A DNA stretch of 64,000 bases from Pseudomonas iranensis (GTDB taxonomy: Bacteria > Pseudomonadota > Gammaproteobacteria > Pseudomonadales > Pseudomonadaceae): positions 3,224,001-3,288,000 of the forward strand of contig NZ_CP077092.1 in assembly GCF_014268585.2 (NCBI RefSeq). Reading direction: 5' to 3'. The position numbers and the translations under genes are program-made. Under the pieces are notes generated by a model, which worked only from the letters and a program-made list of their open reading frames with translations, was not told the origin of the DNA and searched no databases. Position 1 is the first letter of the stretch, and each line of letters starts with the position of its first letter. Shown piece by piece: positions 18,617-35,807 of this stretch.

Positions 18617-19552
18617 TTACACCGCAGCCATGGCTCGCCCAGTGAGTTGACGTTGTGCCTGGTCGTGTAACTGCTGCATGTGCGGGCAATGCAATGTCAG
18701 CTTGCGCGTGCGGTAGCCGCGATGAAACAACGTCAGCCAGCCTCCTGGATTGTCTTGCGCAGGCGCCAGACCGGTGAAAGCAAAACCGATGGCGTTAAGA
18801 CTGTGCAGATCCACGGCAAACTGTCGCGAAAGCTGTAGACGAATCGAAACCAGCCAGTGCCCGGGCAGCGTTCTCAGCTGATCGAGCAGTTCCGGTTCGA
18901 GTTTTTCCACGAGCATTTCATGCCGATTGCCATGTTGTTGAACCTGAACCGAGGGCCCGCGCCAGCATGCTGCGCTGGGCGAACAGCCAAACGCCGTCGT
19001 CATACGCTCCATGAACGCACGGTAGCGGGTTGGCCACGGCTGCTCCGGCAGCGGGCGCTGATAGCCGTCTATGGCGCGGACACCCAAGACGATCGACTCC
19101 GGTGTTTTGCCGCCAAAGGGTGAGCGGACATAGTCCGGCAACAGTCCGGTGTTATGAAAACCGAGACTGATAGCCATGCGTTGGGTATAGGGGTGGTGGG
19201 TGACCTGTTTGATCGAAACGCTGCGACAACTCAACGCCTGTGCATGAGTCAGCAGTTGCGCGCCCAGCCGCGTGGCGATGTTCTTGCCGCGGGTATCGGG
19301 ATGCACGGCGCTCAAGGCCAGTTCGGCATCGTGCGAGTCATCGCTTTGCCGGTACAGCGTGGCATGGCCACGAATCCGTTCACCCTCGACCGCAACCAGT
19401 GAGTGCCAGCGCTTGGCTGCGTGGTTCTGATTGATCAGGCAGGGCAGGTAGACGTCGCTTTGCACGTAATGATCGCCGTACACCTCGCGAAACAGTTCGC
19501 TGACGGCCGTGGCGTCGCTCTCACGGTAATTGCGCAGGATCAACGGTTCCAT
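18617..19552 (-). CDS. GNAT-family N-acetyltransferase with C-terminal extension
   Basis: A 311-residue protein. Residues about 3-150 form a GNAT domain: LILRNYRESDATAVSELF, then ALSAVHPDTRGKNIATRLG, where RGKNIA is the acyl-CoA pyrophosphate loop. About 150 further residues of unrecognised sequence follow (170-311). The ATG at 19552 is chosen because GGGAGG sits about six bases before it; it overlaps the end of the PaaK-like gene by 32 bases, so the two are coupled. It is the last gene of the Lux-like operon and could acylate an amine or hydroxyl of the pathway product; that role is inference. Confidence 0.8.
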   Translation of the reverse strand: MEPLILRNYRESDATAVSELFREVYGDHYVQSDVYLPCLINQNHAAKRWHSLVAVEGERIRGHATLYRQSDDSHDAELALSAVHPDTRGKNIATRLGAQLLTHAQALSCRSVSIKQVTHHPYTQRMAISLGFHNTGLLPDYVRSPFGGKTPESIVLGVRAIDGYQRPLPEQPWPTRYRAFMERMTTAFGCSPSAACWRGPSVQVQQHGNRHEMLVEKLEPELLDQLRTLPGHWLVSIRLQLSRQFAVDLHSLNAIGFAFTGLAPAQDNPGGWLTLFHRGYRTRKLTLHCPHMQQLHDQAQRQLTGRAMAAV

Positions 19553-20861
19553 CACGCACCTCCCTGTCATGTTGGTCATAGCATCGATGATCGACGATTC
19601 GCAGGCTTTTACCTGCGCGAGGATGGCGCACGAGATCCTCGAAGCCGCAGCTCTGGATACGCAGCTCCAGCAGTCGAGCGTCTCGCAGTGGGGTTATCTG
19701 CGGGTAAAGTTCGATCAAACGAGTCTCAAGTGTGCCGTCAATGCCGGACGATCGTGCGTTCGCCACATATTTCAATGTCAGCACATCCCTGTCGTCGACC
19801 TGTTCAATCACCAATTGCCAATCGTCGCTGCCAGTCGTGCACCTTACGGTGTCGCTGATTTCATCCGTCATCAGCGACAGGATCCCGACCCGCACGCGCT
19901 GGCTGCTACAGCTGCGGCCCCTGAGCGCGAATTTGCGTTGCGCCGTGCCCACCGGTTCGCGCCAGCACGCCAGGTCACCCACGGGATAGCGGATCAGCGG
20001 CATCAAACGGCGATGGAGGTTGGTCAATACCAGCACACCGGTTTTGTCGCAGTCATCGATCCGTGCCCCTGTGTGCGGGTCGATGATCTCCAGCAGAACG
20101 TGGCCGTCAGGCGTGCGGTGTTCGCCCTCCATGCAGTCACGGTGGCTGGCACCGATAAATCCACCGTCGACGCTGGCGTAGCCAATGGAGGCAATGCGCG
20201 CATTGGGCAGCACTTGCCGGAGCAGTTGCCGTTGCGAGGCGAACAGGCTCTCCCCGCCGTACAGCACGCTGTCAATCATCGGCAATACCCGCTTGTGTTG
20301 CTTGAGCCAACCGGCAAAGGTCAATAGCTGCGCGGGCGGGCCGGCCAGCACGTTGATCCGGTGTTGCCCGATGGCATCGGCCAGCCTCGCCGGGTCAACG
20401 TCACCGGTAAACGGAAATTCGGTGACAGCCGGTGTAACGTGGGCCAGGGAATCGTGGATAAACAGGAAACTGGCATAGAGGTCGCCGGCGAAAAACAGAT
20501 TGGCTACTCGGTCGCCGGGGTTGAATTGCGCGCTGAGACTGCGGCCGAAGTCCTCGGCCGTGCGTTGCCATTCAGCGCGCGTATAGACCGACAGTCGGCC
20601 GCCACCGGTTGACCCGCCGGTCTTGAAGACCAGCGCAGCCCGTACGGGGGCAGTCAAGACTGCCCATTCATCAAGGTTCTCGCTGCCAGTCCAGAATCCT
20701 GCAGGATCGAGCACAGGCCATTCACTCAGTCGGTTGAGCGCCTCAGGAACCTTGGCGAGACAGTTGTTGTAGTAGGGCGAATGCTGACGGACAAAGCCCA
20801 TCAATTCGCCAATCGGGTCGTTTTTTTTCACGATGTCTTCTTCTTGTTTCGAATAAGCCAA
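19521..20861 (-). CDS. PaaK-like AMP-dependent acid activating protein
   Basis: About 446 residues related to phenylacetate-CoA ligase/CapK-type adenylating enzymes. KTGGSTGGGRLSVYT is the P-loop-like ATP motif, SVLYGGESL and IGYASVDGGFIG are core motifs, and LIRYPVGDLACWREP corresponds to the YxxGD adenylate-binding motif. It is clearly paralogous to the C-terminal half of the neighbouring LuxC fusion protein. The start is uncertain: TTG at 20861 lacks a good ribosome site, and GTG at 20828 with a purine-rich AAGAAGAAG upstream is an alternative. It starts 14 bases after the fusion gene and overlaps the GNAT gene. Likely role: ATP-dependent activation of a carboxylic acid. Confidence 0.8.
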   Translation of the reverse strand: MAYSKQEEDIVKKNDPIGELMGFVRQHSPYYNNCLAKVPEALNRLSEWPVLDPAGFWTGSENLDEWAVLTAPVRAALVFKTGGSTGGGRLSVYTRAEWQRTAEDFGRSLSAQFNPGDRVANLFFAGDLYASFLFIHDSLAHVTPAVTEFPFTGDVDPARLADAIGQHRINVLAGPPAQLLTFAGWLKQHKRVLPMIDSVLYGGESLFASQRQLLRQVLPNARIASIGYASVDGGFIGASHRDCMEGEHRTPDGHVLLEIIDPHTGARIDDCDKTGVLVLTNLHRRLMPLIRYPVGDLACWREPVGTAQRKFALRGRSCSSQRVRVGILSLMTDEISDTVRCTTGSDDWQLVIEQVDDRDVLTLKYVANARSSGIDGTLETRLIELYPQITPLRDARLLELRIQSCGFEDLVRHPRAGKSLRIVDHRCYDQHDREVRDGTVDPAQLP

Positions 20862-20875
20862 CTCACGTTCGAACG

Positions 20876-23278
20876 TCAGCGGCGAGAGTCAATGACCAAC
20901 GGCGTCTTGCCGCTGTATTTGTTCTGAATAAAGGTCACGGGCAAGCATTGTTCTATGTGCAGAACCAGTACTCCGGTGTCGACGGCGCTCATCAGGGTCG
21001 AATTATTGGCGAGCCGTGCCCTGACCGCGTCGGCTGCAAGTTCGCTGTGCACTTGCAGCCGCTCGATGCCCTCTGCGCTGTGGTCCAGACGCAACTGAAA
21101 CGGAACTTGCAGTCGTGTCGCCAGTTCGCTCAGAGAGATAAAGTAAGTGCCGATACGCAGCAGCGTGCCGTGGCGTTGCAACAGTTCGAAGCGCGGCGAC
21201 TGCAGTCCGCAGGCGCAAACGCCCGGCAGCCAGCGCCCGGTGTCGCCAAGCTCATAACGCTCAACGATCTGACCGCCGTCGCGGGCGAGGGAGGTCACCA
21301 CCAGCCGGCCGACTTGATCATCGACAATCGTTACATCCTCATCGAACGCGACGACTTCCAGCTGCTGGATATCATTCATCAAATGGAACACCCCGTCCGC
21401 TGAAGCCTGGCACGCATGGCCAAGCGGGCCGGCATCGACGCTGCCGTAGATCGCCGAGCGAATGAGCACGACGCCACAACTGCGCAGCAATTCACGGTTC
21501 TGCTCGCTGAGGTGCTCGCCACCCATGAAGACCTTTTCGACCCCGCCATAAGCGCGCAGACGCTCCTGCTCGTTGAGGAACAGGCGATGCAGCGTGCCGG
21601 GCATGCCGACCAGCACATTGACCCGCTGTTCGATGATCAATTGGGCAATTTCCCGATAGTCTTCATCGGCCGGGGCGGCCATGGGCAGATGCGTCACCTG
21701 CAGGCATTCCAGCGCTTTGTTGAGGCTCAGAAAACCGGCGTAGAGCCCGCCACAGTAGAACAGGTTCATGACCCGATCCCGCGCCGGATCGAGGCCGGCG
21801 GCGAACAGGCCGTCAGCCGTTGCGCGCATCTGACGATCGAAATCGCGATAGCTGTAGCCAGCCAGCGCAGGGGTGCCGTTACTGCCGCCGGAACGAAAAT
21901 ACAACTGCGCCTGAGCATTGACGGGTTGGGCGATGAAGGCCGCTTTGTCCATGATCGGAGCGCGCGACTTCGCCGGTAATGGCGCTACATCGAGACGGGC
22001 CTGTCTTGGCAATTGCGCGGTCGCCAGACTCACCGATACCCGCCGACTCAGACGTTGTAACGCATAGACGCCGTCATGGGGCTCGCCCTCGTAACCATCA
22101 TGAATGCTGTCGATCGGTGCGATACGCGTAACCCCGGCTGCGATCAGCGTCCGGGTCAGCTCGACAATGCGCGGTTGCGCGCACACCAGCGCACAGCTTT
22201 GCAAGACGTTGCGCCATGGCTGCAGGGTGGCGGTCAGCAGTGCCATCGGCACGGGATGCAGCAGCACGCTACGAAACAGCGGCGACGGCGCAAGTTGCCG
22301 GTTATGTGCCCAGATCACCCGCCAGCCAGAGCCATTCCAGACCTGTCCGGTTTGCCCGGCAAAGCTCTGCGCCAGACTGGCCATTTGCGTGTGCATGGTG
22401 ATCTGTGAAGCTTCCTGAAGCGTTGGTAACAAAGCGGGCCATTGTGCTGCACGTCGCTTTAGCGCCTGCGCCAGGCGTTCACCGATATCGCACAAAACCT
22501 GCGGATCGTCGCTGTCCACCAGCACCCACTGCGGGCTGGAACAGGCCTGCTGATCCAGGCGGCAGACTTCATCGGCCACGGCATCGAGCGCCTCGGGTGT
22601 GGTCGCTTCAGGGGTGAGATAGACAAAGCTGATGCGGTGCCCCCAATCAATCCAGCGACAACCCGGCGCCAACTGTTGCCGAATGGCTTGCAGCGCCGCT
22701 TCGCCACCCCACGCTGCGACACCGTTGGCATGCTTGCATAACTGGCCCGTCTGCTCGGAGCTCACGGGGATAACCGCCACGTAACCGGGCAATTGCCCGC
22801 TCGCATCGCACGCTACCAACGCGCTCAGCAGTTGCGCCGTCAGGCCTTGATCGCTGCGGCTGGGTCGCAACCAGTTGATGTTGCCGGCCAGCAGACTTTC
22901 GACCACGGCGCAAAAGGCCAGAAGCGGCGCGTTGGCGGGCGTGATGTGCACCACCAGTCCGAGCGGACGCCAGGCTTCGAAGCGCGGCTGGCGATAATCG
23001 ATACGGCGCAATGAATCGGCATCCGCGCCGAGTTCACGCTGGCGCTTGTAGAGCAAGGCCTCAGGCTGGCAGAAATCGATCAGGGCCTGACGTTGTTCAG
23101 GGTCGAGAGGCAGATCCGCGTTAGCGCTGCGCAGATGCTCGGCAAAGGCTGACACGGTTTTGATCACCGTGCTGCTGTCGAGTGATGCCTCCAATTGCTG
23201 CGGCAATGCCTGTTGCAAATGCTGCAGTGCGTCGTCGAGGCTATAAGTGTCGTGCAGTTGTCCATTGATCAAGTACAT
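20876..23278 (-). CDS. LuxC-like acyl reductase fused to a PaaK-like adenylating module
   Basis: An 800-residue two-domain protein. Residues about 10-425 resemble LuxC, the aldehyde-dehydrogenase-like fatty acyl reductase of bioluminescence: PLGLVVHITPANAPLLAF, SLLAGNINWLRPS, and LDQQACSSPQ with C246 at the place of the LuxC catalytic cysteine. Residues about 440-800 are PaaK-like, with RSGGSNGTP (462-470), VFMGGEHLSEQNRELL, YGSVDAGPLGHAC, YELGDTGRW and a CACG pair. One chain could therefore adenylate an acid and reduce the activated acyl group to an aldehyde with NAD(P)H. GGAG lies nine bases before the ATG, one base after the luxE-like stop. LuxC is normally a free-standing subunit, so the fusion is unusual. 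Confidence 0.85.
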   Translation of the reverse strand: MYLINGQLHDTYSLDDALQHLQQALPQQLEASLDSSTVIKTVSAFAEHLRSANADLPLDPEQRQALIDFCQPEALLYKRQRELGADADSLRRIDYRQPRFEAWRPLGLVVHITPANAPLLAFCAVVESLLAGNINWLRPSRSDQGLTAQLLSALVACDASGQLPGYVAVIPVSSEQTGQLCKHANGVAAWGGEAALQAIRQQLAPGCRWIDWGHRISFVYLTPEATTPEALDAVADEVCRLDQQACSSPQWVLVDSDDPQVLCDIGERLAQALKRRAAQWPALLPTLQEASQITMHTQMASLAQSFAGQTGQVWNGSGWRVIWAHNRQLAPSPLFRSVLLHPVPMALLTATLQPWRNVLQSCALVCAQPRIVELTRTLIAAGVTRIAPIDSIHDGYEGEPHDGVYALQRLSRRVSVSLATAQLPRQARLDVAPLPAKSRAPIMDKAAFIAQPVNAQAQLYFRSGGSNGTPALAGYSYRDFDRQMRATADGLFAAGLDPARDRVMNLFYCGGLYAGFLSLNKALECLQVTHLPMAAPADEDYREIAQLIIEQRVNVLVGMPGTLHRLFLNEQERLRAYGGVEKVFMGGEHLSEQNRELLRSCGVVLIRSAIYGSVDAGPLGHACQASADGVFHLMNDIQQLEVVAFDEDVTIVDDQVGRLVVTSLARDGGQIVERYELGDTGRWLPGVCACGLQSPRFELLQRHGTLLRIGTYFISLSELATRLQVPFQLRLDHSAEGIERLQVHSELAADAVRARLANNSTLMSAVDTGVLVLHIEQCLPVTFIQNKYSGKTPLVIDSRR

Positions 23279-23279
23279 A

Positions 23280-24410
23280 TCAGTGATTCTCCAGTAATTC
23301 AGCAGCCGCCAGTGCGCAGCTTCTGCCCGCCGTGGTGCCGGCGCGGCCGTGCAGTTCGAACCAGTCGCTGGTCAATCCGCAGCCGCAACTTGCGCCCGGG
23401 TGCAGCGTGGCCAGATCGCTCATGACCACGGCGTGAGCAGGGCTGGAAGCGATGTAAGGCGAGACGAACCCGAGCAGGCCTTGCTGGCCATAGGGCAGCA
23501 ATGAAAAGTCCCGCGGATCGCGAATCAACACCCGCGAATACACCGGCGCATGAAAATGGTGATGGGCGCATTCGATGTAAGGCACGGCATGCTCGACAGC
23601 GCCGTAGCCGTCTCGGCAGCGGACGGGGTCGATGCCCAGTTGCCGGTGGATTTGCGCATATAGCTGTTGCTTTGGGATTTCCTGCGCGGCCTGGGTTTTC
23701 CAGCCGCCGCCAAAAAATGCCAGCGAACCGGCGGGTAATTGCAGATCCTGCACAGCGGTAGCCTGCATGCGTTGCAGGGTCTGCCAGAGGAACGCCGGAA
23801 AGCCGAAAATTCTTACCGGCAAACCTTCTTCAGCGAACGACTGCAACGCGGCGATGACGCCGAACGCATCGAATTGATGGCCGCTGCCGGTAAGGCGCAA
23901 GGCATGGAACACGCGGTTGACCGGGGCAAACTGGCAGAGAAACTGGTCGGTGAAGGAAGTGCCGAGCGTTATGCGGCCCTCGGGTTCATGGCTAAGCAGC
24001 AGGTAGTTGCATGGCGTCTGCGGCGTGTCCCAGCCGTAATGGCGGAAGATCTGCGCGACCATGAATTGCGCGCTCGCCAGGCTGCGCTCGTCGTAGCGCA
24101 TGCGGCTCTTCTGTCCGCTGGTGCCCGATGAAGTCAGTTCGAGGGCATCGGCGCCGGTACTGCTGAGCAAGAGGTGTTGCTTGAAGAAACTGGCGAAGAT
24201 CGGCGGCAGTCGCGACCAGTCATCGAGCTTGTCGAGATCCTCGGGCGCAAGTGCATGGGCCTTGAGCCAGTGCTGATAGCCGGGCGTATGGGCGCAGTGG
24301 AAGCGGCTGATTTCTGCCATTGCCCGATCAAACAGATCGGGAATTGTGGAATCCGCGCAATAGGGATCCGTCAACGCGCACAGCGCGTCGGTAAAGGGCA
24401 AGTGAGTCAT
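23280..24410 (-). CDS. LuxE-like acyl-protein synthetase
   Basis: A 376-residue adenylating protein of the LuxE family, which activates a carboxylic acid with ATP and passes the acyl group to its own cysteine before handing it to LuxC. Visible: ELTSSGTSGQKSRM (P-loop), SLAFFGGGWK, a glycine/acidic RDGYGAVEH and a C-terminal CGCG region. C365, 12 residues from the end, lies where Vibrio LuxE has its acyl-accepting cysteine (C364). AAGGAAC precedes the ATG at 24410; a TTG one codon earlier is less likely. It lies ten bases after the transporter gene and one base before the LuxC-like gene. Confidence 0.87.
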   Translation of the reverse strand: MTHLPFTDALCALTDPYCADSTIPDLFDRAMAEISRFHCAHTPGYQHWLKAHALAPEDLDKLDDWSRLPPIFASFFKQHLLLSSTGADALELTSSGTSGQKSRMRYDERSLASAQFMVAQIFRHYGWDTPQTPCNYLLLSHEPEGRITLGTSFTDQFLCQFAPVNRVFHALRLTGSGHQFDAFGVIAALQSFAEEGLPVRIFGFPAFLWQTLQRMQATAVQDLQLPAGSLAFFGGGWKTQAAQEIPKQQLYAQIHRQLGIDPVRCRDGYGAVEHAVPYIECAHHHFHAPVYSRVLIRDPRDFSLLPYGQQGLLGFVSPYIASSPAHAVVMSDLATLHPGASCGCGLTSDWFELHGRAGTTAGRSCALAAAELLENH

Positions 24411-24419
24411 CAATGTTCC

Positions 24420-25667
24420 TTATTGAGGCGAAGCCACATCAGGCGTGGTGGTTTGCAGGAGGTGGTACATCAGGGGCAGGCACATCAGCCCGCCGAATGC
24501 GGCCCACATAGCGAAATATTCAAGACGGGCGCCGCCACCGATGGCGGCAATCAGCGAACCGCCGAGCCCCATGACGGCAATCGAAATCATGCCGGTCAGC
24601 GCCGATACCAGCCCTTTGCTGTCATCACTGGAAAACAGCGCCAGGCGATACACTGCCGCATTGCTCATGCCCAGCCCGACGGCGTAGAGCGCCACGCTGG
24701 CCACTACCGGTCCAGGTCCGGCACCGAGCAATGCGCACGCCGCCAACAGCAGCAGACCCAGACAGAACGGCCAGAGCGCCAGTTGAATCAATTGCTGCAA
24801 TGAGTGGCTCTGCAGCAAGCGGTCGAGAATCAGATTGCCGGCGATCACCGCAGAAAATACCGGGATCTGCCACAGGCCATATTCCAGTGACGTCAGTTCC
24901 AGAACCCGCACCAGCAGCAACGGTGCGAGGCCGATCCAGGCAATCAGCGGCAGACTCATCAGGCCCAGCGCCAGACTGGCGCAGAGGAAGCGCGGATTGC
25001 CCAACAGCGCGGCGTAGCGCTGCGAAGTGCGGCGCAAGGAGAAAGGTACTTGGGGATTTCGATGCCCGTCGCGGCGCTCGACGCCTACGGTTTCCGGCAT
25101 CCACAAATACAGACCGAGCCACACCAGCGCGGCGCCGCCGCCGAGCAGCAGAAAAATCTCGCGCCAGCTCAGCCATTCCAGCAGCACTATGCCAAGCAGC
25201 GGCCCGAGCAGCGGCGACAACAGAGCGACATTGCCCAGCAGCGCCATGAGCCTGACGGCGTCAGCTTCGCAAAAAACCTCCTGCAACGCCGGGTAGCTCA
25301 CCGCTACGAGAAACCCCAGCCCCATGCCTTGCAACAGACGCAACAGGTTGAACGCTTCAATACTGTGGGTTAAAAAAGCTGCCGCGCACGACAAACCGAA
25401 CAGTGCGCTGCCAATCAACAACAGCGGCCGGCGGCCGAATTGATCGGACAACGGCCCGAGGAACCACTGCAAGCAAACGCCACCCAGCAGATAAAGATTG
25501 AACGCATTGGGTACATGCCGCGAGTCTGCCTCGAGGTCGGTTGTCACGGCCAGCATCGCCGGCATGATCACGTCGCTGCCCATGTAGGTCAGGAGTTCGA
25601 AAGCGGTCAGCGCCAGACAGAAACCTGCCACTTGGCGGGGGCCGATGTTGATAAGTGTTCTCTGCAT
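24420..25667 (-). CDS. MdfA-like MFS drug/product exporter
   Basis: A 415-residue major facilitator protein with about 12 membrane segments. The N-terminus closely follows E. coli MdfA: an acidic pair spaced as in MdfA E26/D34 (ELLTYMGSD), then QWFLGPLSDQFGRRP (motif A) and RLLQGMGLGF. MdfA exports chemically varied lipophilic or cationic compounds by proton antiport. As the first gene of the Lux-like operon it most likely exports the product or protects against a toxic aldehyde. ATG 25667 has AGGG at a workable distance; the ATG two codons upstream is too close to it. Confidence 0.88.
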   Translation of the reverse strand: MQRTLINIGPRQVAGFCLALTAFELLTYMGSDVIMPAMLAVTTDLEADSRHVPNAFNLYLLGGVCLQWFLGPLSDQFGRRPLLLIGSALFGLSCAAAFLTHSIEAFNLLRLLQGMGLGFLVAVSYPALQEVFCEADAVRLMALLGNVALLSPLLGPLLGIVLLEWLSWREIFLLLGGGAALVWLGLYLWMPETVGVERRDGHRNPQVPFSLRRTSQRYAALLGNPRFLCASLALGLMSLPLIAWIGLAPLLLVRVLELTSLEYGLWQIPVFSAVIAGNLILDRLLQSHSLQQLIQLALWPFCLGLLLLAACALLGAGPGPVVASVALYAVGLGMSNAAVYRLALFSSDDSKGLVSALTGMISIAVMGLGGSLIAAIGGGARLEYFAMWAAFGGLMCLPLMYHLLQTTTPDVASPQ

Positions 25668-26606: not shown

Positions 26607-26763
26607 GCGATTACTCCTTTTCAGAGCCAGATCGGGAAAGGTTTTGTTGCGCTCTCTAAACAAGACGTTTCAGCACGACAAATCATGAAAGAAAAGATGT
26701 AGAAATTTCGTCGCAAATTCGTTTCGGCCTTGTGATGCCGGCCTCGTCCCGAAGGATTGCCCG

Positions 26764-26787
26764 CTAAATTTTTTTCCTCAGCTTCGT
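26764..26787 (+). promoter_or_regulatory. Candidate PvdS-type (iron starvation) promoter of pvdQ
   Basis: GCTAAAT (26763-26769) followed 15 bases later by CGT (26785-26787) resembles the iron-starvation promoter, TAAAT about 16-17 bases from CGT, recognised by PvdS-type ECF sigma factors. The spacing is one base short. It lies 63 bases before the pvdQ start codon. Confidence 0.55.
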
Positions 26788-26849
26788 TTCTTCGTCAGGC
26801 TCATTGCGCGTGGACGCAGGGGCAATCGACCTTTCGATCAGGAGCAAGC

Positions 26850-29189
26850 GTGATTATTTCCAGGCAACTCACCGGGCTGGCCCTCGCCAGCACCTTGTTC
26901 GGACTGAGCCTGTCGGCCCATGCACTGAGCCCGGCTGCACAAACCAGCGCCGATATTCGCCGCACCAGTTTCGGCGTGCCGCACATTCGTGCCGAGAACG
27001 AACGCGGGCTTGGCTTCGGCATCGGTTACGCCTATGCCCAGGACAACCTGTGCCTGTTGGCCAACGAGATCGTCACCGTCAACGGTGAACGCTCGCGTTA
27101 CTTCGGGCCGGAACAGTTCACTGTCGAACAACGGGAAAACCGCGTCAGTGATGTGTTCTTCACCTGGCTCAATGCTCCAGAAACGGTCGAAACCTTCTGG
27201 CAGGCGCAACCGGCGCAGGTCCGCGACCTGGTCGAGGGTTATGCCGCCGGCTACAACCGCTATCTGGGCGAACGGCGCCAGCAAGGATTGCCGCAGCAAT
27301 GCCAGGGCGAGTGGGTACGTGATATCAGTGCCGAAGATCTGGTCAAACTGACGCGGCGCCTGTTGGTGGAAGGCGGGGTAGGGCAGTTCGCCGAGGCTCT
27401 GGCCGCCGCTACGCCGCCGCAAGCGACCGCACAGGTCAAGCAGGATGCCGAGGCGTTCCAGTTGGCCGACGCCCGTCAGCAACGTTTCGCCCTGGATCGC
27501 GGCAGCAACGCCGTGGCAGTCGGCAGCGAGCGTTCGTTCAACGGCCGTGGCATGTTGCTGGCCAACCCGCATTTCCCATGGGTCGGCGGCATGCGTTTCT
27601 ATCAGATGCACTTGACCATCCCCGGCAAGCTCGATGTCATGGGCGCCGCTTTGCCGGGTCTGCCGATGATCAACATCGGTTTCAACCAGCATCTGGCCTG
27701 GACCCACACTGTCGACTCGTCGAAACACTTCACCTTGTATCGCCTGCAACTCGATCCAAAGGATCCGACCCGGTATCTGCTTGACGGCAAGTCGCTGCCG
27801 CTGAACAAACAGACGGTTACCGTGCAGGTCAAGCAGGCTGACGGCCAGGTCGTGCCAGTGAAGCGCGATATCTACAGCTCGCAGTTCGGTCCGATCGTGC
27901 AATGGCCGGGCAAGCTCGACTGGGACAAGCAATATGCCTACAGCTTGCGCGATGCCAACCTCGACAACGATCGCGTGCTCAACCAGTGGTACGCGATGAA
28001 CCAGGCCAGCAATCTCAAGGATCTGCAAAACGCTGTGCACGAAATTCAGGGTATCCCGTGGGTCAACACCCTGGCGGTGGATGACCAGGGCCAGACGCTG
28101 TACATGAACCAATCTGTAGTGCCGAACGTCAGCGCCGAGAAACTGGCCAAATGCAGCGATCCGCGTGTCGGCCTGCGGATGATTGTGCTGGACGGTTCCA
28201 ACAGCGGCTGTGCCTGGGACATCGATCCGCAAGCGGCACAGAAGGGCATTTTCGCGTCCAGTCAGTTGCCGCAATTGCTGCGCAAGGATTTCGTCCAGCA
28301 TTCCAACGATTCCGCGTGGCTGGCCAACCCGGCGCAACCGCTCACCGGCTATTCGCCGCTGATCAGCCAGGAGGGCCAGCCACTGGGCCTGCGCTCGCGA
28401 TTCGCACTGGATCGCCTCGATGTCTTGCGCAAAAAAGGCCCACTGGCAGTCAAGGATCTGCAGCACATGGTAATGGATGACCAGGTGTATCTGGCGACGC
28501 AGGTCATGCCTGATCTGTTGATTTTTTGTGGCTCTGATCTGGGCAATGATGCGGCGAAACTGAAACCTGCCTGTGCCGCCCTCAAAGCCTGGGATAGTCG
28601 CGCCAATCTGGATTCCGGGCTCGGTCTGGTGCATTTCCAGAACATCATGCAAGCGCTGCTCGAATCGCCGGACATCTGGCGTGTTGCGTTCAATCCGGCA
28701 GATGCGCAAAACACCCCGCGTGGTCTGGCGGTCGAGCAGCCCGCAGTTGCCAAAGCGCTGCGCGAGGCCATGCTGGCGTCGGTCGAACTGACCGGCAAAA
28801 TGGGCCTGAAACCAGGCACGCGCTGGGGCGATATTCAGGTGGTCAGCAGTGGCGGGCGGCAGACGCCGATTCATGGCGGGCCGGGGACGCTGGGCATTTA
28901 CAACGCGATGCAGAGCGTGCCCCGTGAGGATGGCAAACTTGAAGTGGTCAGCGGCACCAGCTATCTGCAAGTGGTGAGCTTTGATGAAAAAGGCCCGCAC
29001 GCCCAAGGGCTGCTGGCGTTCTCGTTGTCCAGTGATCCGATGTCGAAATACTCGCGGGATCAAACTGCTGCATTTTCGAAGAAGCAGTGGAGTGTCCTGC
29101 CATTCACTGAGCAACAGATCAAAGCGGACCCGCAGTATCAGGTGCAGACGATCAAGCAGGATCAGGCAGGGAAGGTGGCAGCGCAGTAA
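26850..29189 (+). CDS. pvdQ: Pyoverdine-maturation acylase PvdQ (Ntn hydrolase)
   Basis: A 779-residue periplasmic Ntn hydrolase that removes the fatty acyl chain from the pyoverdine precursor; PvdQ enzymes also cleave long-chain acyl-homoserine lactones. A signal peptide (about 1-26, ending SAHA) is followed by the alpha chain (SFGVPHIRAENERGLGFGIG, LTRRLLVEGGVGQFAEAL). The autoproteolytic Gly-Ser at 218/219 (DRGSNAVAV) starts the beta chain with S219 as N-terminal nucleophile. The sequence follows P. aeruginosa PvdQ closely over its whole length, for example LLANPHFPW, MRFYQMHLTIPG and HTVDSSKHFTLYRL. The GTG start has GGAG eight bases upstream. Confidence 0.92.
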   Translation: MIISRQLTGLALASTLFGLSLSAHALSPAAQTSADIRRTSFGVPHIRAENERGLGFGIGYAYAQDNLCLLANEIVTVNGERSRYFGPEQFTVEQRENRVSDVFFTWLNAPETVETFWQAQPAQVRDLVEGYAAGYNRYLGERRQQGLPQQCQGEWVRDISAEDLVKLTRRLLVEGGVGQFAEALAAATPPQATAQVKQDAEAFQLADARQQRFALDRGSNAVAVGSERSFNGRGMLLANPHFPWVGGMRFYQMHLTIPGKLDVMGAALPGLPMINIGFNQHLAWTHTVDSSKHFTLYRLQLDPKDPTRYLLDGKSLPLNKQTVTVQVKQADGQVVPVKRDIYSSQFGPIVQWPGKLDWDKQYAYSLRDANLDNDRVLNQWYAMNQASNLKDLQNAVHEIQGIPWVNTLAVDDQGQTLYMNQSVVPNVSAEKLAKCSDPRVGLRMIVLDGSNSGCAWDIDPQAAQKGIFASSQLPQLLRKDFVQHSNDSAWLANPAQPLTGYSPLISQEGQPLGLRSRFALDRLDVLRKKGPLAVKDLQHMVMDDQVYLATQVMPDLLIFCGSDLGNDAAKLKPACAALKAWDSRANLDSGLGLVHFQNIMQALLESPDIWRVAFNPADAQNTPRGLAVEQPAVAKALREAMLASVELTGKMGLKPGTRWGDIQVVSSGGRQTPIHGGPGTLGIYNAMQSVPREDGKLEVVSGTSYLQVVSFDEKGPHAQGLLAFSLSSDPMSKYSRDQTAAFSKKQWSVLPFTEQQIKADPQYQVQTIKQDQAGKVAAQ

Positions 29190-30725: not shown

Positions 30726-33700
30726 TTACGGTACAGATACCATCTGGCTTGAGACCGGCGCTGGCAGCGGAATGGGCGCCGGCAGGGGGTCCAGCTCTCG
30801 GCCCATTTCGCTGATGAGTAATGCGATCGAGTCGGCGTTGGCCAGTATCACGTCAACACGTGCCTCGTCAGAGACTGGACTGCGAAACGCCTTGCGTGCC
30901 TCGGCAAGGGTTTTGGTTTTAGTCAGGGTCAGAATTTTTTGATAGTCATCGGCGTGCGATGGTACCTGGTCGATGTCCACCCAGTTCCCCAGATCATCTT
31001 TCTCCAGGAACAACTTCGCAGGTGGTGTAGCGCGCGACAGCGATTTACGCAGGCGATCAAGATCATCCTTGAGCAACTGGCCGTCCGCAGTGGTGGTGTC
31101 GATAAGGCTGGGAAAGGGTGCCATCGCCTCTACTGCAGCCAGATCTTCGCTATCGCAGACCAGATGCGACAGTTCATGGAGCAGAATGACGGCCCGAGCG
31201 TGGGAGTCCACGTTGAATCTGGGAGGCAGAAACTCCGTATAGGCGTTCAGCCCCGGATTGAAGAAGTGCTGGGTAAAGTGGACGATCTTCTTGCTGTCCT
31301 GCTTGAAAACGAAGGCAACCGTATCGTCACCGTAGCGCTTGTTCAGGCCAGCAAAGAAGCGATCGGTGTAGAGCAAGTCATCCTTGGGATCCGTCAGCTC
31401 ACGGCACAACGGGATGATGACCTTCTCGAACTTCCTCAGCAGCGCCGGCGTAACCTGTGCCACGTCAAAAAAATCCCTGAGCACTCGCTCAACCCGCGTG
31501 CCTCCCAGGTTATCGCGGTGAATGACGAAGTTATGCAGGCAATTGAGCGCGTAGGCTCTTGCCCGGATGACGGCCTGCTGTATCACGAAAGCCCTGGCGG
31601 GAGAGGTGCGGTTGATCTGTGCCATGCCTTTGGCCTGGACCTTTAGCACGACTGAGCGTTCCTTTTCGACATTTTCTTGCAATGTTTTCGGTCGCTTGCG
31701 TCGGCAGCGCTGCACGGTCTGGCCGTCGCGAGCAATGATCAGTCTTGAGTTTTTTTCCTCAAGTAGCGGTCCTGCACTGCCATCCTTCTTGCGCATAAAC
31801 CATTTTTTTTCCGCCTTGACGACGGAATAGACCTTGCCGGCAATCGCGACATAATTTTTCGCGGTGGATGCGTCGCGATAAACCAGTTTACTGGCCTCAA
31901 GCTTGAGGCTGTTCAGCGCCTTGCTGGTTTCAAACGATTGCAAGCTAACACGAGCAGGGGCAGCGGGCGGCACTTTCGCCCAGCGCGCGGCGGCTTGTAC
32001 CGTCGTGTCAGTAACGTCAGGAGTTTTTACCTCAGAGGCAAATTCAGAGGTTGCCGTTTCCGCCTCGGTTTCCCAGGACAAACGTCCCAGGCTGAACAGC
32101 GAGATTGCCCCCGCAATAAAGTTCTTCAGGCCCTGCGCCCAATGGTGATCCTGAAGGCCTTCGGCGGATTCCTTGAAGTCCTGATAGCTTTTCCAGAGAA
32201 AAAACAAAGAGGCGAGTTTGCCCGGCAACAAGTGCGGCACCAGGCGCACCCCGTGACTGAAGAGAAACTTTGCCGCTTCCCAATCCGCCTGGGCATTGAT
32301 CTGTGGCTGACTTTTGAGCAATTGCAGCAGGAGGTTGAGGGTGTCTTTGTGAAACCGCTCGAGCACGTTGCTGCTGATAGCCTGACTTTCAACCGTGATC
32401 TCGCTGGGTTTGCCAATCGTCGTTTGTAACAGGTTCCTGAACACGGCCTGCTGGTCTTCAGGCAGACGCCGGATGATCAGATCCTGAAAATGCCCGGGAG
32501 TATTCAGTGCATCGATCAACTGCACCTCGTTTTCGAACTCGCGAAAAACGAATCTGGAATAGGGCGCATACAGCACCCGTGGCCCTGTTTGCCCCGATCC
32601 TGGCCCGATGACATATAGCCCGAGTGCGTCGACGGGATCAGCGCCACCGGTCTTGATCAACGATAGCGGGCAAACAATCGCGTGGGCTCCCTCGACCGTG
32701 GTGCGAGCTACTCCATCGGGCATGTCGAGCACTTGGCAAATATAGTCATAACCGTTCCCGGACAGTTGTTGCTGCAACTTCAATGCGTGCGCGTGTTGCA
32801 TCAACTGCCAGGGCAACTGACGGACGAAACGTTTTTTACTGACGCGCGCAGCCTCATTGGCACCGGACAGCGCGGCAGTCACTTTGCGTGCATAGGTCGT
32901 GACCACTTCCAGCGATTGCAGCAGTTGCCGCACGGCGGACTGATCGAAGTTTTTTGGTAAAGCCGTGGCTGTTTTCGCCGCCACCTTGAAACCGCTGCCC
33001 TGCACGACGTTGTAGTGATGCAGGGCAAATTCCAGCAGGTCGCAGGCCGGGCCTGCAAGCGTCAGGTTCGGAGTGATCTGAATGTCCTGCGGCTTGAGTC
33101 GGTTATTGGGGTATCTGGTATCGAGCAGTGTCTTCAGCGTTTGCTCGATGTGGGTGGCCAGGGGCGGAACGCCCTCAAGGAAATCCTTGCCATCGATAAA
33201 CGCGAGCCGCACTTCGTCCAGCAGCGCTAGTTGCGTGTGCTGTTCCGTCATTGGGGCCATGCGCAACCAGTCGGGGTAGTCCAGATGACGGGCGACGCTA
33301 CGGGCGATATCGATGGCTCGGCGCAGATTGGTATCGATGACGGTGGCTTTCATTTCGGCAAGTAACTTCGCCAGCGTGTCTTCGTCCTTGATGCACGTGC
33401 GTAATAGCTCACACTCGGCCATGTAATGTTCAATAGCCGATTGCATGCGATCACTCGACACACTCCCTTCTATCAACTCGAAATTGCCAAGCGTGTACTG
33501 CTGATCCAGGCGCCGTTGCCTCGTTGGCAGATTTTCCAGCAGGATTTGACTCTGGTTGTTGTCGTCGAGCCGTCGTTGCAGTTGTTTGCGCGCAGTCTCG
33601 ATATCGTTGAAGGATTCCAGGCCATTGGCTGGTGTCCAGAGAATCGCGCGTCCGGAGTGCGCGACATCCATGCCACCGCGCTCGGTCAACAGCACACAAT

Positions 33701-35579
33701 GAGCAAGCGGCAGTGCCTCACTCTGGCCGGCGCATTTCACGGTCATTGACCAGGCGTCCGGGCGAAAGCCATTGAGCGACTGGCGCTCGGCGCGTGTCGG
33801 GTGCCCTGTATCGAACACGGTATGGATAATCTGTCGTTCGGCCTCCAGCCACGAACCACTGAGAGTTCTCAGCTGTGCTTCGCCGCGCATAGCCGCCTCG
33901 AATGCCTGCGCCAGCTTCCAGCCAATGCTTTCTACAAAGCCGCGCTGCTCCCGACTGCTCGCGGTCGGCTGGTTCTTGAAGTTGCCGGTCAGGCTGTCCA
34001 GCGTTCGTTGCAGACTCGTCTGCAGTTGCTCGGCCTTGTCCGCCTGCACCAGTGACGATGGCGGCGCACTGGCAAACAAAGGTCGGGTGCTCCAGCGCTC
34101 ATTGGCGTCAAGCCTGAGCAGGCGCTGATGGATCATTGACCGGATATCCAGCGCCTTGTCGAACAGCGCGTGAATATCGCTGGTGCGTTCGCTCTGACGA
34201 AACGACTGCAGGGCAAATTCAATGTTCTGCCGCTGTTTGGTGAGGACTGCCTCAAACAGGGTCGTCATGATTTCGCCGCCGATGTTTTCCCCTGACACCT
34301 GAGCATCGGTAAAACCAAGGTAGCGTTTGCGCTCCTCCAGGCTCATCAGCCCGTACAGTTCATCTTCGTGTCCGGCAGCACCGAGTTTTGCCGTCAGTGT
34401 CTGTTTGAGATCGGCATAGTCATTGAGTACCTGCACGCCTTCGCTGGGCGTGTAGAGGTAGGCTTTGTCATGATTAATCATCAACGACCCGGCCAATTCG
34501 ACCTGGACGCTGTCTTCGCGCAAGCACACGGTTTCGAAGGTTGGCCTGCGCACGGCTACGTTCGGCTCGCGGATCAGACTGTGCAGGGCGTCGAACTCAC
34601 TGGCGGAGAGAATTTCCGTTTCGCGCTTGATCATCAAGTCCGCGCGCGCCTGATCCATCAGTGTCTGGGCGAAGAGGGTGCGTCGCGGCGAGCCCTCGAA
34701 TGAAGCAGCATTCCAGTAACCTTCGAGCTGCCGAAACAACAGCATGGTCAGTTTGCCCGATGCGCAGTTGATTGCAGTCGCCCACGCTGATTGATCATCA
34801 GTGCCGGGGAGACGGGTGGGATGGGAAAATTCAACGGTCTGACCCTGCGGCCAGCCCTGACGGCGAAAATGCACCAGCAACGCTTCAGTCAGTGAGTGTG
34901 AATCAAGCCACTGTCTGTCTTGGCCGGAGGAGGCGGGTGTCTTGACGGTGTAAAAACCGACTCGGGTTTGCGACTGCTGCAGGTCGCCAAAATGTGGCTT
35001 GAGCAGATCGTCGAGAATTGCTTGCAGCAGTGTAGTGAGCGACGGCAAGCGTTTCAGTTCGTCCACGAGGTCGCGTGCGCAGGCTTCCTGCGAATCGGTG
35101 ATTGCTGTTTGTTGATCCTCGAATACATCACCTGTGATGGTTTCGCGGGTGATGGTAATGCCGCGTTTCTCCACCAGCTCCTTGCGCAGCGAAACGTTTA
35201 GAAAAGCCAATAGATCGTCTTGCTCGTCTGCATTGTCGAGGCGCGCTTGCAACGCCTCCGTCAGCGCCTGGTCATCGCTGTATTTTTTCAAGCCGTCGTA
35301 GGGGGTGTACAGAAACATCCCGTCATCATCAGGCGCCGCGCCAAGAATGAAACTGCCAGCCAGAGGTACAGGCAATTGCTTGTCGGCGTTGAGCAGAATG
35401 CGTTCGGCCAGCATCGGCGGAGTTTGTGCGCTGCGCAGGGTCTGGGTGGCCAGCTGCACATGCGCGAGCCAAACAAAGTCTTTGCTGTTGAAACCGTGTG
35501 TTTTAGCCAGGCCGGCATGCAGGCCAGGGGATTTCAGAATGTCGGGGAACAGCAGTGGTGCGGTCGGACTGGACATCAT
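30726..35579 (-). CDS. DUF6543-like giant toxin candidate with C-terminal HELSH protease-like domain
   Basis: About 1617 residues. The N-terminus (about 10-250) resembles the DUF6543/dermonecrotic-toxin-like N domain of large pseudomonad proteins. At least three, possibly four, copies of a module with a core like GMFLYTPYDGL or KAYLYTPSEGV, each followed by a 30-residue helical stretch, are spread through the body. The C-terminal domain contains HELSH (1468-1472, DNA 31164-31178), an acidic DSED shortly after and a late NADSIAL motif, an arrangement like aspzincin (M35-type) metallopeptidases. There is no signal peptide, so a secretion-system route is possible but unproved. No immunity or chaperone gene was recognised next to it. 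The two adjacent ATGs at 35579/35576 have only a weak ribosome site; a longer frame reaches 35711. Confidence 0.68.
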   Translation of the reverse strand: MMSSPTAPLLFPDILKSPGLHAGLAKTHGFNSKDFVWLAHVQLATQTLRSAQTPPMLAERILLNADKQLPVPLAGSFILGAAPDDDGMFLYTPYDGLKKYSDDQALTEALQARLDNADEQDDLLAFLNVSLRKELVEKRGITITRETITGDVFEDQQTAITDSQEACARDLVDELKRLPSLTTLLQAILDDLLKPHFGDLQQSQTRVGFYTVKTPASSGQDRQWLDSHSLTEALLVHFRRQGWPQGQTVEFSHPTRLPGTDDQSAWATAINCASGKLTMLLFRQLEGYWNAASFEGSPRRTLFAQTLMDQARADLMIKRETEILSASEFDALHSLIREPNVAVRRPTFETVCLREDSVQVELAGSLMINHDKAYLYTPSEGVQVLNDYADLKQTLTAKLGAAGHEDELYGLMSLEERKRYLGFTDAQVSGENIGGEIMTTLFEAVLTKQRQNIEFALQSFRQSERTSDIHALFDKALDIRSMIHQRLLRLDANERWSTRPLFASAPPSSLVQADKAEQLQTSLQRTLDSLTGNFKNQPTASSREQRGFVESIGWKLAQAFEAAMRGEAQLRTLSGSWLEAERQIIHTVFDTGHPTRAERQSLNGFRPDAWSMTVKCAGQSEALPLAHCVLLTERGGMDVAHSGRAILWTPANGLESFNDIETARKQLQRRLDDNNQSQILLENLPTRQRRLDQQYTLGNFELIEGSVSSDRMQSAIEHYMAECELLRTCIKDEDTLAKLLAEMKATVIDTNLRRAIDIARSVARHLDYPDWLRMAPMTEQHTQLALLDEVRLAFIDGKDFLEGVPPLATHIEQTLKTLLDTRYPNNRLKPQDIQITPNLTLAGPACDLLEFALHHYNVVQGSGFKVAAKTATALPKNFDQSAVRQLLQSLEVVTTYARKVTAALSGANEAARVSKKRFVRQLPWQLMQHAHALKLQQQLSGNGYDYICQVLDMPDGVARTTVEGAHAIVCPLSLIKTGGADPVDALGLYVIGPGSGQTGPRVLYAPYSRFVFREFENEVQLIDALNTPGHFQDLIIRRLPEDQQAVFRNLLQTTIGKPSEITVESQAISSNVLERFHKDTLNLLLQLLKSQPQINAQADWEAAKFLFSHGVRLVPHLLPGKLASLFFLWKSYQDFKESAEGLQDHHWAQGLKNFIAGAISLFSLGRLSWETEAETATSEFASEVKTPDVTDTTVQAAARWAKVPPAAPARVSLQSFETSKALNSLKLEASKLVYRDASTAKNYVAIAGKVYSVVKAEKKWFMRKKDGSAGPLLEEKNSRLIIARDGQTVQRCRRKRPKTLQENVEKERSVVLKVQAKGMAQINRTSPARAFVIQQAVIRARAYALNCLHNFVIHRDNLGGTRVERVLRDFFDVAQVTPALLRKFEKVIIPLCRELTDPKDDLLYTDRFFAGLNKRYGDDTVAFVFKQDSKKIVHFTQHFFNPGLNAYTEFLPPRFNVDSHARAVILLHELSHLVCDSEDLAAVEAMAPFPSLIDTTTADGQLLKDDLDRLRKSLSRATPPAKLFLEKDDLGNWVDIDQVPSHADDYQKILTLTKTKTLAEARKAFRSPVSDEARVDVILANADSIALLISEMGRELDPLPAPIPLPAPVSSQMVSVP

Positions 35580-35807
35580 CGGAGCTCTGAACGGGGCGCC
35601 ATCAGGCAGGGACTCGACAGTAGGCCCCCAGCCCGGAGCAGGTGCGGTAGATGGATACCGCACGCGCCGGATCGAAATGTGAGGTCGGCGCCGCCAGCCA
35701 TTGCCGTGCAATCGAAGGGTTGACAGCTGACAGCTCTGGCGGGGTTAATCGGTGGGCAAATTGACCGTACGCTGTTGTTCCCTCCAATAATCATTCTGGA
35801 GCTTCAG

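Follow-up and report, generated by a model that had tools for sequence, protein, structure and literature searches.

The window analysed here is a stretch of 64,000 nucleotides from the genome of Pseudomonas iranensis, whose minus strand carries, from position 25667 to 18617, genes coding in that order for a major facilitator superfamily (MFS) exporter, a LuxE-family protein, a fusion of a LuxC domain to a PaaK-like module, a second PaaK-like protein and a GNAT protein. This five-gene set had been proposed in an initial annotation of the window, and both the open reading frames (ORFs) and the Pfam matches bear it out at this place. The individual genes and domains are as follows, with counterparts named after the leupeptin operon (leupABCD) of Klebsiella michiganensis, to which the set is compared below:

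24420-25667, minus strand: MdfA-like MFS exporter (Pfam and NCBIfam), the likely counterpart of the transporter adjoining leupABCD
23280-24410, minus strand: LuxE-family acyl-adenylate/acyl-protein synthetase, leupA counterpart (PF04443, PDB 7xc6 and alignment)
20876-23278, minus strand: LuxC-PaaK fusion, leupB counterpart (identity to the K. michiganensis protein P0231)
22040-23122, minus strand: LuxC acyl reductase domain of the fusion (PF05893 at residues 53-413, with Cys246)
20879-21979, minus strand: PaaK-like adenylating domain of the fusion, residues ~434-800 (TIGR02155, PDB 4r1l)
19521-20831, minus strand: second PaaK-like adenylating enzyme, leupC counterpart (NF045666, TIGR02155, PDB 2y27)
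18617-19552, minus strand: GNAT acyltransferase, leupD counterpart (PF00583 and alignment)

The starts were placed at 25667, 24410, 23278, 20831 and 19552 from alignment to relatives and ribosome-binding sites judged by eye, the second PaaK-like gene being taken to begin with the GTG at 20831 rather than the TTG at 20861. With these corrected starts, the intergenic gaps measure 9, 1 and 44 bp and the last two genes (the leupC and leupD counterparts) overlap by 32 bp; hence, the tight spacing described earlier survives in its overlap and short gaps, with the largest gap being 44 bp and not 14. Such spacing would be compatible with a single transcript. The operon spans 7.05 kb, of which the four enzyme genes take up 5.79 kb. 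A promoter scan returned one site against 2.5 expected by chance, and this on the wrong strand, while 11 terminator-like sites were found against 7.2 expected. In the source genome, the LuxE family has one match, at the operon, and LuxC a single strong one, also in the operon (354 bits), with a second place reaching 25 bits against a cut-off of 21.

Domain architectures and conserved residues

Profile searches place all five proteins in named families, as had been anticipated, rather than in unrelated ones, and no NCBIfam equivalog cut-off is reached by any of the four enzymes. The exporter matches PF07690 (MFS_1) with 115 bits and the NCBIfam MdfA subfamily with 328 bits, under its cut-off of 439. 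The LuxE-family protein is recovered by PF04443 (85 bits, cut-off 24.9) and by the LuxE of PDB 7xc6 (E 7.5e-12), and shows 60-64% identity to homologues from Xenorhabdus, Rugamonas and an Enterobacterales metagenome-assembled genome (MAG). Close to its C-terminus lies a cysteine, Cys366 (numbered from the TTG at 24413), which is invariant in 8/8 aligned sequences. The LuxC half of the fusion is a strong match to PF05893 (352 bits, cut-off 21), and its Cys246, invariant in 10/10 aligned sequences, lines up with a cysteine of the LuxC in 7xc6.

The two PaaK-like parts are more distant from their namesakes: the AMP-binding Pfam model recovers both weakly (22.7-22.8 bits, under the cut-off of 29.9), and the NCBIfam PaaK model matches both (E 4e-13 and 1e-11), far under its equivalog cut-off. 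In the fusion, TIGR02155 covers residues 434-688 and PDB 4r1l is matched with E 2.1e-10. Alignment shows the stretches FRSGGS, YGSVDAGP, GD and SGK, which we take to be adenylation motifs, to be invariant or almost so. The second PaaK-like protein matches NF045666 with 97 bits (cut-off 300), TIGR02155 with 49 bits (cut-off 646) and PDB 2y27 (E 5e-11), with 41-56% identity to seven homologues. The GNAT protein matches PF00583 at residues 26-141 (40 bits, E 5e-10) and is 34-64% identical to seven homologues; its C-terminal ~150 residues have no Pfam match. Thus, Cys246 of LuxC and Cys366 of the LuxE-family protein are retained in the window proteins, as are the main stretches conserved in each PaaK module, judging from alignments of 10 (LuxC-PaaK), 8 (LuxE) and 8 (PaaK-like) sequences drawn from genera other than Klebsiella. 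As the initial annotation had it, the five proteins include no carrier protein: neither condensation nor carrier domains have a Pfam match in them. Likewise, luxA, luxB and luxD are absent from these five and the six neighbouring proteins scanned, the rest of the genome not having been searched for them.

Correspondence with the leupeptin operon

The taxa among the matches listed for a Chromobacterium query (best 120 of 686), which added Photorhabdus, Klebsiella, Burkholderia, Chitinimonas, Janthinobacterium and Ensifer proteins, led to the identification of the set with the leupeptin operon. In K. michiganensis CAV1374, leupABCD spans 5.83 kb and is described as occupying a fixed insertion site (315353-321183), with a transporter next to it (PMC8283571). 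The leup cluster is named as responsible for leupeptin biosynthesis, and leupeptin and a Lys analogue were detected in K. oxytoca ATCC 8724, since renamed K. michiganensis, upon induction by N-acetylneuraminic acid (Neu5Ac), the K. oxytoca operon being silent in the usual laboratory media (PMC11480411). In the same source, Photorhabdus luminescens and Xenorhabdus bovienii are named for leup operons that make leupeptin-derived pyrazinones, and a homoarginine form is attributed to Xenorhabdus and Photorhabdus and not to K. oxytoca; in its available portions, no leup deletion strain is compared chemically. This route is distinct from synthesis by nonribosomal peptide synthetases (NRPSs) (PMC10548850). 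Hence, the suggestion that the window's gene set is undescribed is not supported, for it matches leupABCD and its transporter in K. michiganensis (PMC8283571, PMC11480411). Accordingly, we posit, with a probability of roughly 0.84, that the operon represents the leupeptin operon as it occurs in Pseudomonas and that it most likely assembles, by an NRPS-free route, an N-acyl peptide aldehyde to be exported as an inhibitor of proteases.

The link at the protein level runs through LeupB. The reverse complement of the published leupB_r primer encodes EQLKDH, found at residue 47 of the 801-residue K. michiganensis LuxC-PaaK protein P0231; as the primer site lies in P0231, this protein is LeupB. The primer position puts the leupB start at 316482. 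A leupA running from the stated cluster start, 315353, to one base before leupB would comprise 375 codons and a stop, which is the length of the Salmonella LuxE-like protein, and by this size and place the Klebsiella LeupA is probably LuxE-like. For the Klebsiella leupC and leupD, we assign the families by analogy, following the sets of Salmonella and Xenorhabdus, the available text of PMC8283571 giving their names and coordinates. The window fusion is 51.2% identical to P0231 over 803 aligned positions, i.e., over the full length, and 51.9% identical to a Photorhabdus homologue, P0142, which was compared as a protein alone; P0231 and P0142 share 53.8% identity.

This correspondence bears on whether the operon could instead be a Lux-like reductase of a fatty or other simple carboxylic acid, with an aldehyde unrelated to peptides. 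Membership in the LuxE and LuxC families speaks for such an activity, as does the first of the labels long-chain-fatty-acyl-CoA reductase, acyl-CoA reductase and phenylacetate-CoA ligase that several database entries attach to these proteins. However, the scores fall far under the NCBIfam equivalog cut-offs (53.3 of 550 bits for LuxE and 57.6 of 750 for LuxC), two extra PaaK modules and the GNAT would be left unexplained, and the set matches the published leupeptin operon; we therefore regard this option as very unlikely. The acid activation, aldehyde formation and export that the initial annotation had foreseen are consistent with the families and residues, but a fatty-acid substrate is not retained: since the set matches leupABCD and its transporter, the substrate is likely a short acylated peptide.

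Phyletic distribution and gene-order conservation

A protein search recovers the LuxC-PaaK fusion in 60/298 Pseudomonas genomes, including the source. In 58 of these it is one full-length frame and in two (G280 and G293) it is split into two frames, which could be decay or an assembly error. A scan with one genome per species returned 127 relatives, the best 80 of which were analysed as loci; they are mainly from Pseudomonas (fluorescens, koreensis, mandelii, frederiksbergensis, chlororaphis, viridiflava and others), and the remainder come from Xenorhabdus, Rugamonas, Chromobacterium, Parachitinimonas and one Enterobacterales MAG. The LuxE, LuxC-PaaK, PaaK and GNAT genes occur together, in the window's order, in 80/80 fetched loci, so that the conservation of the neighbourhood, on which the earlier proposal hinged, holds throughout and the four-gene arrangement is not due to chance. 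An MFS homologue lies directly upstream in 69/80 loci. It is missing from this position in all 11 Xenorhabdus loci, although one of these (L105) covers only about 1 kb upstream; in one locus (L055) the MFS and LuxE matches fall within one open frame. Pseudomonas and the other genera have different genes on the flanks, and therefore the four or five genes constitute the unit, with the proviso that the clustering of flanks is blurred by antisense ORFs in GC-rich DNA. No further biosynthetic gene was seen by eye to recur beside the set in eight loci (four from Xenorhabdus and four from other genera).

The neighbourhoods also inform on a different kind of chemistry, namely activation or reduction of an aryl or phenazine-type carboxyl group. 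EhpF/EhpG and the benzoxazole-forming PaaK ligases have roles in aryl and phenazine carboxyl activation, and the PaaK-like modules of the operon are weakly similar to phenylacetate-CoA ligase and to other PaaK-like ligases in PDB. However, the operon has no aromatic-ring gene and none was seen by eye recurring beside it, and the fusion is homologous to LeupB over its full length. No chain named EhpF is among the PDB matches at E <= 0.01, and an EhpF/EhpG-like reduction of a phenazine acid was dropped on this count. We give next to no credence to this type of activity. The acyl modification of flagellin, considered because LuxE/LuxC appear in literature on flagellin glycosylation in Aeromonas and Enterobacteriaceae, was likewise set aside, as no sugar genes were seen to recur beside the operon.

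The distribution of the operon is patchy: among evenly drawn genomes, at E <= 1e-40, the fusion is present in 1/369 of the class (the source genome alone) and in 2/398 of the phylum (the source and one other). Relatives are also found on plasmid records of Salmonella and Streptomyces, with the same LuxE, LuxC-PaaK, PaaK, GNAT order on a Salmonella plasmid. A leup-like LuxE, LuxC-PaaK and PaaK set is present on two IncF plasmids of Salmonella enterica that are typed as conjugative (L114, CP054717.1 105717-111475; L117, CP053580.1 62538-67415); a GNAT is annotated in the former and not in the latter, and the annotation of both sets gives enzyme families but no pathway. On a Streptomyces plasmid (L116, NZ_CP108162.1, 2809-12347), PaaK, MFS, GNAT, LuxE and LuxC-PaaK genes stand in a row, rearranged relative to the window and with the MFS and GNAT named by annotation, with the LuxE-, LuxC-PaaK- and PaaK-like proteins showing 51%, 40-41% and 36% identity to those of the window. 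Three I36 peptidase-inhibitor genes lie near this set on the opposite strand, which would fit a protease-inhibitor role.

Among the literature matches listed, we found no report of a leup operon in Pseudomonas, with the caveat that the founding leupeptin-operon paper may name the genus. The available text of PMC8283571 does not name it, and in PMC11480411, where it occurs at 17 places, the 12 covered here concern pyrazines or references. Searching the literature by enzyme names gave nothing relevant among the matches listed.

The operon site in Pseudomonas

The left flank gene of the operon is matched at E <= 1e-20 in 70/298 Pseudomonas genomes, of which 53 with E <= 1e-60 were kept and 17 dropped; this survey covers 39 of the 60 operon-bearing genomes. 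In 53/53, the right flank gene lies on the same contig within about 10 kb, with the operon present at this site in 39 and absent in 14. The flank-to-flank distance is 7.6-7.9 kb (26 genomes) or 9.9-10.0 kb (13) with the operon, and 0.4-0.9 kb (6) or 2.6-2.7 kb (8) without it, such that operon-bearing and operon-free sites differ by ~7.3 kb in both size pairs. The extra about 2 kb between the flanks, seen in 21/53 genomes, is independent of the operon (13 with and 8 without). Four of the 14 operon-free sites were fetched. One of them (genome G011, locus L118, 2826-2930) retains about 35 residues of the 3' end of the GNAT gene at 77% identity; because this remnant remains at the site, the operon of that genome was probably lost by deletion. 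The other three show no operon remnant at E <= 1e-3.

Two further genes lie beyond the operon in the window. At 26757-29189 (plus strand) is a Penicillin amidase family protein (473 bits), with a homologous neighbour cluster recurring in 50/80 loci, and at 30726-35711 (minus strand) is a 1661-residue ORF with a match to Pfam ToxA_N (dermonecrotic toxin N-terminal) at residues 891-1070.

The LeupB tree and the nature of the Pseudomonas product

A maximum-likelihood tree of 37 LeupB-like proteins, rooted with two Streptomycetaceae, unites the ten Pseudomonas sequences in one clade with support 100, outside all other proteobacterial ones; the most diverged full-length Pseudomonas copies (G103, G109, G126 and G189) are left out of this sampling. 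The unity of the remaining Proteobacteria has support 68. Several points count against assigning the operon to the leupeptin pathway. As the Pseudomonas clade lies beside the other Proteobacteria with this modest support for their unity, the reported leupeptin producers do not firmly bracket Pseudomonas. LeupC (44-46%) and LeupD (37-40%) are more diverged from Xenorhabdus and Salmonella than LeupA and LeupB are, and the sequence comparison with Klebsiella is confined to LeupB. On the Streptomyces plasmid, the GNAT is marginally similar to that of the window (E 2e-4 to 0.05) and the MFS protein has no match to the window's MFS. Finally, we infer the Pseudomonas product from the gene set and homology.

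Some of these points raise the possibility, which we count within the leupeptin-operon explanation, that the same machinery has as its main Pseudomonas product another acyl-peptide aldehyde with a different acyl cap or residues, or a derived pyrazinone. The separate, fully supported Pseudomonas clade and the low conservation of LeupC and LeupD would agree with this, as would the variation of leup products, such as the Lys analogue in K. oxytoca (PMC11480411). Divergence increasing from LeupA through LeupB and LeupC to LeupD was considered as a sign of a changed product and rejected: LeupC and LeupD are equally diverged between Salmonella and Xenorhabdus, where conservation falls off in the same order, A>B>C>D. 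On balance, a different main product is a tentative option, with the odds leaning clearly the other way.

A predicted pathway

Within the leupeptin-operon explanation, the most likely product is a leupeptin-type compound, either N-acetyl-Leu-Leu-argininal or something closely analogous. Leupeptin itself is N-acetyl-Leu-Leu-argininal, with which the reported m/z of 427.30 agrees (PMC11480411). To make it, an N-acetyl group must be added, two peptide bonds formed and a carboxyl group reduced, which amounts to three carboxyl activations; the operon supplies three adenylating modules alongside a single GNAT, a single reductase and a single exporter. This agreement between the adenylating modules, reductase and acetyltransferase and the needs of N-acetyl-Leu-Leu-argininal favours a leupeptin-type product.

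In the proposed scheme, the GNAT protein LeupD would N-acetylate leucine using acetyl-CoA. LeupC and the C-terminal half of LeupB, as ATP-dependent PaaK-like enzymes, would then form the two peptide bonds through acyl-adenylates, where either module might serve either bond. LuxE and LuxC are established partners, and hence LeupA most likely activates the carboxyl that is to be reduced: it would adenylate the carboxyl of the finished peptide and may load it on its own Cys366 and then onto Cys246 in the LuxC part of LeupB. The resulting thioester would be reduced with NAD(P)H to the aldehyde, which the MFS protein is predicted to export.

Functional implications

The leupeptin route itself is known; the new part is its putative Pseudomonas members. 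The operon-bearing Pseudomonas are largely named plant- and soil-dwellers. One may speculate, at well under even odds, that an uncharacterised branch of the leupeptin pathway is present in about one in five Pseudomonas species, the product of which is a distinct peptide aldehyde directed against plant, protist, insect or neighbouring-microbe proteases, or matured into a pyrazinone signal. If the assignment to the leupeptin pathway is true, many Pseudomonas species would secrete an inhibitor of serine/cysteine proteases, and this might bear on how root- and leaf-living pseudomonads face the papain-like proteases of plants or predators.

Comparison with known systems

Phenylacetate-CoA ligase PaaK is a distant sequence relative, present in the operon as two PaaK-like copies, one of them fused to LuxC. 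The luxCDABE operon shares the LuxE and LuxC families, with Cys246 aligned to the LuxC cysteine, but differs in that the window's LuxC is fused to PaaK. The NRPS-made peptide aldehydes of Streptomyces (antipain, flavopeptins and leupeptin) and livipeptin, which is made by a tRNA-dependent enzyme together with an NRPS, belong to the same product class of peptide aldehyde protease inhibitors (PMC10548850), whereas the five window proteins contain no NRPS or carrier domain. The closest parallel is leupABCD: while the window's MFS homologue is absent upstream in the 11 Xenorhabdus loci and the Pseudomonas LeupB forms a separate clade, the two operons have in common the four enzyme genes with an adjacent transporter, a near-equal span (5.83 versus 5.79 kb) and full-length homology of LeupB.

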